Source: a virus
Length of the DNA: 64,000 nt
Reading direction: 5' to 3' (one strand)
IMG/VR virus record: IMGVR_UViG_3300028027_000057
Span: 1-64,000 of that record
Below are positions 5,750 to 29,603 of the stretch, piece by piece. The notes under the pieces were generated by a model that was not told where the DNA came from, did no database searches, and saw only the letters and a list, made by a program, of their open reading frames with translations. A program made the translations under genes and the position numbers. Each line of letters begins with the position of its first letter. The stretch's first letter is position 1.

Positions 5750-7600
5750 ATGAACAAGTCGAATCGTTTATTAGCAGAACTCGTAGCCTACCGAACATAT
5801 GCAAAATATCTATCACACGCTAATCGACGAGAGGCTTTAGCTGAGACTATCAATCGTAACATGACAATGCACCTTGATAAGTTCCCAACCCTAAGCCGAG
5901 ACATTATTAAAGCATATAAACAGGTACATGACCTAAAGGTTATGCCATCTATGCGATCTCTTCAGTTCGGCGGAGAAGCAATCACTAAGAACAACGTAAG
6001 GTTATTCAATTGTAGCTTTGCTCACATCAAATACGTCAGAGTCTTCGCTGAAGCCCTGTATTTACTTCTATCCGGTACAGGATTCGGCTTCTCTGTACAG
6101 CAACGCCACATTTCACAGCTACCTAGCATCAAACTCCCTAAAGAAGAGGGAACATACGTAGTTCATGACAGTATTGAGGGGTGGGCTGAGGCATTGAACC
6201 GATTAATGGAGGCATACTTCTATGGAGCCATCCGTCCATTGTTCGATCTTAGTCTTGTTCGCCAAAAAGGCAGCTATCTTGTAACGACAGGGGCAAAAGC
6301 GCCCGGTCCAGAGCCACTTCGTCAGATGTTGGTCAAAGTAGAGGCAATACTAAAGACTTGTATCGGCAGAAAGATGACTGACCTAGAGACTCATGATGTA
6401 CTTTGTCTAATTGCAGACTGTGTGCTAGCTGGAGGTATCCGTAGGGCAGCACTTATTAGTCTCTTCGACCGAGATAGCAAGCTAATGTTAACTTCCAAGC
6501 ATGGAAACTGGTGGGAGAAGCATCCTCATCGTGCACGGGCTAACAATTCAGCAGTTTTGATACGTGGACAAGTTAGTATGGAAGAATTCTACCATGTATA
6601 CGACCAATGTATCGCATCTAACGCGGGAGAACCTGGATTCTTCTGGACAAATGATCCAGAGTGGGGAACAAACCCATGTGCAGAGATTGCATTGCAGTCT
6701 AACCAGTTCTGTAACCTAACTACTACAAACTTAACGGGAATTAAGAATGACAAAGACTTCGAGAACCGCATCTACGCAGCGAGCTTCCTCGGAACGCTCC
6801 AAGCCACGTACACGGACTTCCCATACCTCAGTGAAAGGTGGAAGCAAGTCACAGAAGAAGAAGCCCTTATCGGATGCAGCTTTACTGGAATTGCTGACTC
6901 AAGCTTATTGTCTGGCGAAAGCCTCAGAGACGCTGCAAGAACAGTTCTCGACATTAATGCTAAGTATTCAAAAAAACTCGGGATCAACCCGGCAGCAAGG
7001 GCTACTGCTATTAAGCCTGAAGGAACTGCATCATGCGTTCTTGGATCAAGTAGTGGAATCCACGCAAGGCATGATCAATTTTATCTCCGTAGAGTAAGGA
7101 TGAATCGAGACGATGAACTAGCTAAGTATCTAATGCGAGTTTGTCCTGAGCTTGTAGAAGCTGATCTATTCTCACAGACAGGAGTTGTAGTAACCATCCC
7201 ACAGGAATCTCCTGCCGGCGCTGTGTTACGTAACAACGAGTCAGCTATAGAACTATTCGAGAGAGTGAAACTATACTACGAGAACTGGGTAGTGCCGGGA
7301 CATAGGTCAGGAGCTAACACACACAACGTAAGTTGTACAATTAACTATCGTCCAGAAGAAACCGAGCTACTTAAGATCAAGCTATGGCAAGATAGAGAAT
7401 CATATGCAGCGGTTGCATTGTTACCAGCAAGCGATACTATTTACCAACAAGCGCCGTTTGAAGGATGCGACGAAGCGACCTTCAAGAAGTTCGATGCAAT
7501 GGTAAAAGATATTGACTTGACAAAGGTAATGGAGATGGAAGATAATACAAACCGAGCAGAGCAGCTCAGTTGTGCAGGCGGATTATGTGAAATTTTATAA
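5750..7600 (+). CDS. nrdJ: Class II (adenosylcobalamin-dependent) ribonucleotide reductase
   Basis: A 616-residue enzyme resembling the monomeric RTPR of Lactobacillus leichmannii (739 residues). It reduces ribonucleotides to deoxyribonucleotides for phage replication. Key residues are in place: Cys88 (L-F-N-C) and Cys321 (F-C-N-L) as the redox pair, the thiyl-radical Cys310 with Glu312 in N-P-C-A-E, and the C-terminal shuttle Cys608/Cys613 in C-A-G-G-L-C. Other landmarks are S-G-T-G-F-G-F-S-V near 108-116 and K-P-E-G-T-A near the substrate site. No NrdB or activase is encoded nearby, as expected for class II, which relies on B12 and on thioredoxin-type reductants. AGGAG precedes the ATG. A metallophosphoesterase and conserved phage genes follow. 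Confidence 0.92.
   Translation: MNKSNRLLAELVAYRTYAKYLSHANRREALAETINRNMTMHLDKFPTLSRDIIKAYKQVHDLKVMPSMRSLQFGGEAITKNNVRLFNCSFAHIKYVRVFAEALYLLLSGTGFGFSVQQRHISQLPSIKLPKEEGTYVVHDSIEGWAEALNRLMEAYFYGAIRPLFDLSLVRQKGSYLVTTGAKAPGPEPLRQMLVKVEAILKTCIGRKMTDLETHDVLCLIADCVLAGGIRRAALISLFDRDSKLMLTSKHGNWWEKHPHRARANNSAVLIRGQVSMEEFYHVYDQCIASNAGEPGFFWTNDPEWGTNPCAEIALQSNQFCNLTTTNLTGIKNDKDFENRIYAASFLGTLQATYTDFPYLSERWKQVTEEEALIGCSFTGIADSSLLSGESLRDAARTVLDINAKYSKKLGINPAARATAIKPEGTASCVLGSSSGIHARHDQFYLRRVRMNRDDELAKYLMRVCPELVEADLFSQTGVVVTIPQESPAGAVLRNNESAIELFERVKLYYENWVVPGHRSGANTHNVSCTINYRPEETELLKIKLWQDRESYAAVALLPASDTIYQQAPFEGCDEATFKKFDAMVKDIDLTKVMEMEDNTNRAEQLSCAGGLCEIL
7517..7546 (+). promoter_or_regulatory. Likely sigma70-type promoter inside nrdJ 3' end
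   Basis: TTGACA at 7517-7522, an 18-nt spacer and GATAAT at 7541-7546 match a sigma70 promoter and share the TTGACAA box of other promoters on this strand. It would transcribe the gene at 7609 onwards. It lies in coding sequence, so chance occurrence is possible. Confidence 0.45.
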
Positions 7601-13106: not shown

Positions 13107-13829
13107 ATGAGATTACTTAATTTATTATTAGCAACGACTATCTTCTTTCTTTTAATAAATATTAAAGTATCTCAAACTCCAGTCAGAGAAAAGGTATTCA
13201 TCCCTTATGTAGAAAGTCTATGTGTTGCTCTAAAAGAAAGAGGACATTCCTGTAGATTAATAGAAACAGTATCTATTAGAAAAGCAGTGCTATCTAAGAA
13301 ACTAGCAGGGCTTTATCACCCACTAGCACACGACATACTAATCAGTACTGAAGTGTGGGATAGGTCAAGCGATGAAGTAAGAGAGCAGTTAGTATATCAT
13401 GAACTAGGTCACGCGCTAGGGTTAGACCATATAGAGTATGGAATTATGCAGTCCGGTGGATTTATTAACGATACATTTTATAAAAGATACAGAGATATGT
13501 TTATTGAAGAAATGCTAGGAGAACTAGCATTAACACCTAAGGAGAAGCTAGTGACAAAAGCAGATGTGCTAAATAACAAACATGCTGTAGTGCGATTTAC
13601 TGCAACATGGTGTCCTCCTTGTAAAGCTCTAGCTCCAATCTTTGATGAAGTCGCGGCTGCAAATCCAGACGTTGTAACGTATGTTATAGACGTAGATCAG
13701 AACATGGACCTAGCTAGGGATATGGGAGTCAGAGGATTGCCGACGATGATTCAAATCAAGGATAATGCAGTGTCGACATCTCTTGTTGGCTTGCAGTCTA
13801 AAACTGAAGTAGAGAAGCTATTCAAATGA
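13107..13829 (+). CDS. Metalloprotease-thioredoxin fusion with N-terminal membrane anchor
   Basis: A 240-residue two-domain protein. Residues 5-19 are a signal/anchor segment. The first domain has H98-E-x-x-H102-x-x-G-x-x-H108 and a candidate Met-turn I-M-Q-S at 113-116, the metzincin-type zinc protease signature. The second (about 150-240) is a short thioredoxin with W168-C-P-P-C172 and the cis-proline in G-L-P-T at 210-213. An in-frame GTG at 13551 (residue 149) is preceded by AAGGAG with a 6-nt spacer, so a separate cytosolic 92-residue thioredoxin may be made too. The long form is probably extracytoplasmic. Thioredoxin could reduce the class II reductase. Confidence 0.8.
   Translation: MRLLNLLLATTIFFLLINIKVSQTPVREKVFIPYVESLCVALKERGHSCRLIETVSIRKAVLSKKLAGLYHPLAHDILISTEVWDRSSDEVREQLVYHELGHALGLDHIEYGIMQSGGFINDTFYKRYRDMFIEEMLGELALTPKEKLVTKADVLNNKHAVVRFTATWCPPCKALAPIFDEVAAANPDVVTYVIDVDQNMDLARDMGVRGLPTMIQIKDNAVSTSLVGLQSKTEVEKLFK
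13551..13829 (+). CDS. Possible internal product: stand-alone thioredoxin
   Basis: This is a nested frame inside the fusion gene starting at GTG 13551 with an excellent SD (AAGGAG, 13539-13544). It would give 92 residues containing only the thioredoxin fold with W-C-P-P-C near 20-24. Length is slightly below the usual 105-110. The alternative is that the SD is a relic of two ancestral genes now fused. Translation from this site is inferred, not shown. Confidence 0.5.
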   Translation: MTKADVLNNKHAVVRFTATWCPPCKALAPIFDEVAAANPDVVTYVIDVDQNMDLARDMGVRGLPTMIQIKDNAVSTSLVGLQSKTEVEKLFK

Positions 13830-24688: not shown

Positions 24689-25027
24689 ATGTCTAGTATT
24701 GTAATCAATGTTAAAGGTCGGGACTGGACCTTTATACTAATGACCGATAAGCGATTTGATAAGGTACATAATAGTAGCGGTGAATCTGCCGCTGTTGCTA
24801 TGACAATGACTACTACATACGAATGTCACTTCCGTAAGTCAGACTGGGACCTCGTTGCAATTAGACACGAATTACTGCATGTGTTATATAACATGGGACT
24901 TAGTAGTTCAGCCGAGTTGACCCCAGAACAAGTTCAAGAAGTATGTGCAGAAATTGTTGCACATCACACGCCAGATATAGTATTATGGACAGATAGGATT
25001 TGTGAAAGATTTTTAGGGAGGGAATAG
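24689..25027 (+). CDS. Putative zinc metallopeptidase-like protein
   Basis: A 112-residue protein with I-R-H60-E61-L-L-H64-V-L near the middle, a zincin-type H-E-x-x-H, and an E-V-C-A-E-I-V helix near 92-98 whose Glu could be the third ligand. Similar small H-E-L-L-H proteins occur in many phages with unknown targets. It lies 3 nt after the exonuclease stop. Confidence 0.6.
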   Translation: MSSIVINVKGRDWTFILMTDKRFDKVHNSSGESAAVAMTMTTTYECHFRKSDWDLVAIRHELLHVLYNMGLSSSAELTPEQVQEVCAEIVAHHTPDIVLWTDRICERFLGRE

Positions 25028-28458: not shown

Positions 28459-28801
28459 ATCGGATTTTGACTATCCCTATCTAGAACCATCCGTTGCGCT
28501 ATTAAAACGCAGAGACGAGGTTATAGACGTTGCTAGCTATGCAAACCAGTTAACTCCAGACGAGAAAGCATGGATGAATCAATTCATGAAAGAGTATAAT
28601 GATGCAGACACAGCAACTGCGGTATTTCATACTGACGCTAAAACTCGTAAGATTTGTAATGATAGGAATAATGCTAGAAACCGTTGTTGGTATACTGAAG
28701 AAGCTGCGGCGAATAGATTGAATTTAGTGGAGTCGGACTATGAAATGGAACGATTAATTTATTCTACTGACCCATCAACTTCCGAAGACGAGCCATCTTA
28801 G
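28388..28801 (+). CDS. Conserved phage protein of unknown function (GTG start)
   Basis: A 137-residue protein with a Lys/Arg-rich N-terminus, L-T-P-D-E-K-A-W-M-N-Q-F near 54-65 and C-N-D-R-N-N-A-R-N-R near 89-98, a pattern I recall from small proteins of other phages. I prefer GTG 28388, with GAAGGA 8 nt upstream, over ATG 28379, which lies inside that SD. It overlaps the preceding gene by 71 nt, and its last 38 nt are antisense to the end of the late strand. Confidence 0.6.
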   Translation: MTQEKKKRGGVRKKSSGTAKKPRRSDFDYPYLEPSVALLKRRDEVIDVASYANQLTPDEKAWMNQFMKEYNDADTATAVFHTDAKTRKICNDRNNARNRCWYTEEAAANRLNLVESDYEMERLIYSTDPSTSEDEPS

Positions 28802-29603
28802 CAGGGGATTTATTATATGATTTACGCGCTTTGTCTTCTACTAATAACTGTTTCTCTTCTTCTGCTGACTCTCCAACGTCGTCGGCCTCAGAAAGTCCGG
28901 GTACGGCGGCAGAGGCATCCTGTGACAACAAAGCAGCGGCGACACCTAAGACGGGCATACCCTTTAAAAGACGAGGAAGGTTAGCCTGAGCTACTGTAGC
29001 CCCTCGTTTTAATCCATGGTGACCTTTAAGTAATAATTCTTTTAGGTCATTAATGTCTGCAGATTTTACTAGTTCTCTCATCTTTTTAGGATCAAGAATT
29101 CTTCCCATATCATCAACTAGATCAGTTGACAAACTCTTAAGTTTCTTATTAGTTTTAGGTCCGGGTAATAATTCGTCAGTATCTCCATAATCTTTATTAG
29201 CAAAATCTCTAGCATGGAGGTTTTCATGTAATACAGTAGACGCAAAATCCTCAGTTGTTCCTTTAGGGTTTAAAGTTATCTTACCTCTAGAAGGATCGAA
29301 CACTCCAAAGTCTTTCATACTAGGATCAATCTGTATAATCTTTTTAACGTCGGGAGTGAATTGATTAGTTAGTTCATGAGCAAAATCAGTCATCTGGGCA
29401 CTAGAACTTCCTTTATTAGGAATCTTACCTTTAAACTGTTCCAATGCTGCACTACCTAGTGCTTGTTCTTGTAGGTTATTAGCACGATATGAATCATCAA
29501 TAAAGTTACCTGATCTCTTCATATAAGGATCAAGATCGAATTCGCCTTTCTCTGCGTTCTTACGAATAGCGTCTAGAATGAGTTTTCTTTGTGCTTCGTC
29601 CAC
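28764..29603 (-). CDS. Putative HExxH metallopeptidase-like virion or lysis protein
   Basis: A 279-residue protein with V-L-H126-E127-N-L-H130-A-R-D, a zincin-type H-E-x-x-H preceded by a helix, and a hydrophobic Ala-rich stretch near 213-230. The start is GTG, sharing a base with the holin stop. It follows the ejection proteins and holin at the end of the late strand, so it may be a virion-associated protease or lysis factor. No peptidoglycan-binding domain is visible. Its C-terminus overlaps the convergent early gene. Confidence 0.55.
   Translation of the reverse strand: MDEAQRKLILDAIRKNAEKGEFDLDPYMKRSGNFIDDSYRANNLQEQALGSAALEQFKGKIPNKGSSSAQMTDFAHELTNQFTPDVKKIIQIDPSMKDFGVFDPSRGKITLNPKGTTEDFASTVLHENLHARDFANKDYGDTDELLPGPKTNKKLKSLSTDLVDDMGRILDPKKMRELVKSADINDLKELLLKGHHGLKRGATVAQANLPRLLKGMPVLGVAAALLSQDASAAVPGLSEADDVGESAEEEKQLLVEDKARKSYNKSPAKMARLRKLMGQ

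Follow-up and report, generated by a model that had tools for sequence, protein, structure and literature searches.

A phage gene joining a metzincin-like domain to a mini-thioredoxin, with a conserved candidate start site at the joint

In the phage DNA analysed here (the window, 64 kb, the first part of a 75 kb viral contig), a single frame, unbroken over 240 residues as read in translation, joins a leader and a metzincin-like domain to a mini-thioredoxin, with a Shine-Dalgarno-like AAGGAG and an in-frame GTG at the joint between the two domains. Judging from sequence, two products from this one gene are plausible. The best explanation we can offer, to which we would give about an even chance, is a fusion that retained an internal start and makes both an exported fusion protein and a cytosolic mini-thioredoxin. 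Each part belongs to a known kind; together, within the scope of our searches, they make a new combination. The features of the gene, with the related phages L002 and L003 for comparison, are as follows.

13107..13829, + strand: whole fused gene, signal anchor, metzincin-like domain and mini-thioredoxin
13107..13163, + strand: signal sequence or membrane anchor, residues 1-19; hydrophobic leader, helix 2-17 in the model
13179..13532, + strand: metzincin-like domain, residues 25-142; AlphaFold2 pLDDT 88.7; homologous to bacterial lipoprotein-like peptidases
13398..13430, + strand: zinc-binding motif HELGHALGLDH, residues 98-108; H98, E99, H102 and H108 invariant in 57 sequences
13446..13448, + strand: Met-turn methionine M114, invariant in 57 sequences
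13539..13544, + strand: Shine-Dalgarno-like AAGGAG where the two domains meet; L002 and L003 have the identical sequence
13551..13553, + strand: candidate internal GTG start, V149; codon and spacing of 6 nt unchanged in L002 and L003
13551..13829, + strand: mini-thioredoxin, 92 aa from the GTG; PF00085; pLDDT about 97
13608..13622, + strand: redox motif WCPPC, residues 168-172, read in the translation

Over the region tested, the source phage has no DNA similarity to named phages; for its major capsid protein, the closest match is that of a Silvanigrella phage, at 29% identity. IMG/VR scans for close relatives, run either with the whole fused protein or with just its peptidase half, returned zero matches. 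L002 (60 kb) and L003 (38 kb) were reached via the neighbouring nuclease gene, and a remoter phage, G003 (84.6 kb contig), via its DNA polymerase, which is 49% identical. The one-frame fusion is found again in L002 (8388-9155) and L003 (8739-9506) at the same location, 3' of an HNH gene; in the window, the ATG sits immediately 3' of the TAA of that gene. The original prediction of a metzincin-like domain and a thioredoxin behind a signal anchor in a single frame is borne out, with both motifs and the leader verified and with no stop codon between the domains of either relative. Because the frame is open in three of three phages, the fusion is not an accident of assembly or sequencing, although L002 and L003 are near copies of each other, so that the independent fusion-bearing lineages number only two. 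Compared with these relatives, the thioredoxin half is 73-75% identical and the peptidase half 24%, and their interdomain linker is longer by 11 residues.

The zinc motif had been described as HExxHxxGxxH, which is correct for the window and agrees with the HExxHxxGxxH/D pattern of metzincins; the relatives, however, do not keep this spacing, which is longer in the fused homologues (HELGHCVLKKRDH) and reads HELGHCxLxRxH elsewhere. M114 follows the zinc motif as the Met-turn of metzincins does, and HELGH and this Met are intact in every phage copy. Against the PF18894 (PhageMetallopep) profile, the window copy scores 19.6 bits, under the cut-off of 23.7, whereas the fused homologues of L003 and L002 score over it (27.9 and 28.6); of the 57 aligned members, 52 match this profile. 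A profile built from the phage copies retrieved 80 bacterial homologues, chiefly from Saprospiraceae and Bdellovibrionota, commonly of 150-200 residues and many of them with a lipoprotein-like leader and HELGHCxLxRxH. With these peptidases the window copy shares the same domain throughout, from the leader through HExxH, the third His and the Met to the C-terminal helix; it differs from the bacterial proteins in a motif that reaches the third His one residue sooner and in having no lipobox Cys, and none of the 80 carries a thioredoxin domain.

More distant comparisons point to the metzincins. Sequence-profile comparison led to adamalysins and selecase, and a Foldseek search with the peptidase model to selecase and similar small peptidases. 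Structural alignment with the catalytic domains of MMPs gave Z of 8.0-9.1 over 109-116 residues, values that exceed those of models without a clear match just moderately and are supportive rather than decisive. The domain is thus like the metzincins (matrixins) and selecase, jannalysin and abylysin in motif, Met-turn and predicted fold, at an identity to metzincins of 9-20% in the structural alignments, and its activity is putative. Taken together, a metzincin-like fold of the N-terminal half is supported by the modelling, and we infer peptidase activity. The two domains were modelled with separate alignments because a joint alignment misaligned the halves; the full-length model (pTM 0.47), in which the linker has low confidence, says little on the peptidase half or on the arrangement of the domains.

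In G003, the peptidase is a separate gene of 177 residues with a lipobox-like Cys. The stop codon between the domains that the original prediction had considered for relatives does end the peptidase in this distant phage, yet no thioredoxin lies downstream, nor was one found anywhere on the contig. Directly 5' of this free-standing gene is an SPFH/prohibitin-like ORF (L055, 2024-3205, - strand) and 3' of it an outer-membrane-like ORF, which, with names taken from translations only, would make an envelope-directed cluster. Elsewhere in the window, a second HExxH protein (HELLHVLYNMG; 24689-25027, + strand) is one that G001, G002 and G003 have too, and a HENLH ORF (28764-29603, - strand), possibly a metallopeptidase-like virion protein, adjoins structural genes.

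The C-terminal half is more easily placed. It matches PF00085 over the cut-off (70.9 bits, E 9.7e-20; E 1.1e-20 for the part from the GTG on), and its cis-Pro, P212, is invariant in 30 sequences. The first strand of classical thioredoxins is absent: the model opens with helix 151-155, two residues after V149, followed by strand 159-165, as expected for the short phage forms, and residue 5 of the GTG product aligns with residue 15 of E. coli thioredoxin. Viral relatives, up to about 47% identical, mostly stand alone as genes of about 80-95 residues, starting just 5' of RFTATWCxPCK. The predicted 92-residue GTG product fits these free-standing mini-thioredoxins in core and in length; unlike the fused window gene, they are separate genes, usually close to a reductase. 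One free-standing mini-thioredoxin gene (L043, 2833-3234) has an N-terminal hydrophobic anchor of its own and no peptidase.

At the joint, the sequence reads AAGGAG-AAGCTA-GTG, confirming the Shine-Dalgarno sequence, 6-nt spacer and in-frame GTG noted there before. The calculated anti-Shine-Dalgarno pairing is -9.1 kcal/mol for the internal site versus -4.0 for the gene's own ATG (-8.7 versus -5.1 in the relatives), and the internal sequence ranks among the strongest of 26 starts checked. As a class, such sites are not enriched, since strong 6-mer Shine-Dalgarno sequences with an in-frame NTG within genes occur twice in the 75 kb contig, where synonymous shuffling predicts 3.05, and a single site therefore means little. 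The a priori chance of such a site within about ten codons of the joint is about 0.3% by our own, post hoc arithmetic. What lifts the site above chance is its conservation in diverged relatives across two independent lineages: AAG GAG ... GTG is unchanged between them, while most flanking linker codons differ. For comparison, identical residues of the thioredoxin half share their codon in about half of the cases (Val in 2 of 9), and GTG makes up 11% of the Val codons in the phage. Several considerations count against internal initiation: GTG starts are few in the phage, going by longest-ORF starts; the folding stability of the 70 nt around the window GTG is about that of the background, giving it no special accessibility; and K-E and V at the site could be kept for reasons of the protein.

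We propose that an in-frame fusion linked the phage gene of an exported, membrane-anchored metzincin-like peptidase to the gene of a phage mini-thioredoxin at the latter's start region, and that the ribosome-binding site and GTG of the thioredoxin gene were retained. Ribosomes starting at the ATG would then make an exported peptidase-thioredoxin, and those starting at the GTG a cytosolic mini-thioredoxin of 92 residues, which most likely would reduce the class II ribonucleotide reductase that the phage itself encodes. More tentatively, and at somewhat less than an even chance, one gene might in this way provide thioredoxin in two compartments, in one tied to an exported peptidase, perhaps for cytochrome c, and in the cytosol free for the reductase.

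The chief rival, possible in our estimation if rather doubtful, makes the fusion the sole product and the Shine-Dalgarno sequence and GTG a relic of a once-separate thioredoxin gene. The periplasmic thioredoxin would then keep thiols reduced, for example in the CxxCH of cytochrome c in the manner of CcmG or ResA, or would serve the substrates of the peptidase. The signal-like leaders of all three fusions and the lipobox-like one of the free-standing homologue argue for such an exported form, and protein-level reasons for retaining K-E..V would serve this rival too. A relic, however, would be expected to decay, and AAGGAG-N6-GTG has stayed intact in both lineages next to a peptidase half so strongly diverged.

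The surroundings of the gene offer a possible client on either side of the membrane.

5750..7600, + strand: class II (B12-dependent) ribonucleotide reductase with a C-terminal Cys pair; PF02867, PF21995
9211..9549, + strand: exported monohaem cytochrome c-like gene; CTRCH and signal sequence; PF00034 at 20.7 bits, just below the cut-off

Ribonucleotide reductases of classes I and II get reduced by thioredoxins or glutaredoxins (PMC6459318). In 12 of 18 contigs with free-standing thioredoxin relatives, a reductase match is encoded no more than about 4.5 kb away and on the same strand (one of the 12 falls below the cut-off). This neighbourhood suggests that thioredoxins of this type are reductase partners acting in the cytosol, which favours a cytosolic form, and thus the internal start, over a relic. 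The source phage encodes no further thioredoxin or glutaredoxin above threshold, and we infer that its reductase is likely the cytosolic client. G003, on the other hand, has a reductase and a peptidase but neither a thioredoxin of its own nor the cytochrome c gene, so that a phage-supplied thioredoxin is not required by the reductase.

The cytochrome c-like gene is present in all three fusion phages (L002 5405-5743, L003 5314-5652) and, as just noted, is missing together with the thioredoxin from G003. Its product, with CTRCH/CVSCH, a signal sequence and a C-terminal Met region, has no match among 50,697 phage records, and it is a candidate periplasmic client. This co-occurrence favours the rival that gives weight to the exported form, although it amounts to one phylogenetic contrast. 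In sum, the reductase partnership speaks for a cytosolic form and the exported leader for a periplasmic one, and the two uses can be compatible with each other, as they would be in the two-product reading that we prefer.

If instead the short thioredoxin alone were functional, the peptidase half would be a decaying or incidental extension with a weakly used ATG. The greater calculated strength of the internal start and the very long branch of the window's peptidase half (4.1 changes per column in the peptidase tree) are in line with this; we consider it unlikely, given the intact HELGH and Met-turn Met of the phage copies, the open frame and the confident model. Release of the thioredoxin from a single translation product by a proteolytic cut between the domains, to which the low-confidence linker of variable length might lend itself, is more improbable still, as no cleavage site is apparent and the conserved Shine-Dalgarno sequence would be left unexplained.

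If the internal start is used, a compact phage gene would supply one redox domain to either side of the inner membrane and would show how a fusion can arise without loss of the free protein. It would also place redox proteins, thioredoxin and cytochrome c, in the envelope of the phage-infected cell, where phage biology has been little studied. Internal starts that yield two products from one phage gene are familiar from T7 gene 4 and lambda S. In Rhodobacter capsulatus, AerR likewise comes in a long and a short isoform from one gene with an internal start codon; there, unlike here, the internal codon is CTG, two promoters are involved and the protein is unrelated (PMC6199135). In T4, too, the phage makes both a thioredoxin and the ribonucleotide reductase that it serves, but there the thioredoxin has a separate gene, the enzyme is of class I and no peptidase is involved (PMC6459318).

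In this gene, two genes that are each known separately are fused where the second begins. Among 2.9 million viral contigs, no further such fusion was found as far as the search patterns could reach: the narrow motif-pair pattern matched nothing because of the relatives' longer linker, and widened patterns gave 13 loci, with both motifs in one frame in L002 and L003 only. A match in Burkholderia phage FLC9 that extended into the peptidase half proved to be two separate genes. Searches of the open-access literature turned up no account of a peptidase-thioredoxin fusion in phages. A recent fusion of two adjacent genes had been suggested; the halves do exist as separate genes elsewhere, whereas an adjacent unfused pair was not found. 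That the genes were formerly adjacent is our reading from one outgroup phage, whose peptidase stands alone, and from other phages with free-standing mini-thioredoxins. The three fusions may have a single origin; in tests of this on the peptidase tree, where the window copy sits on its very long branch, p-AU was 0.31 for the four phage copies together and 0.083 for the three fused ones. The likely history is that the stop codon of the peptidase was lost beside a thioredoxin gene that retained its ribosome-binding site. In our reading of a short alignment, the L003 peptidase extends to about the end of the G003 protein, and the Shine-Dalgarno sequence follows a few residues on.
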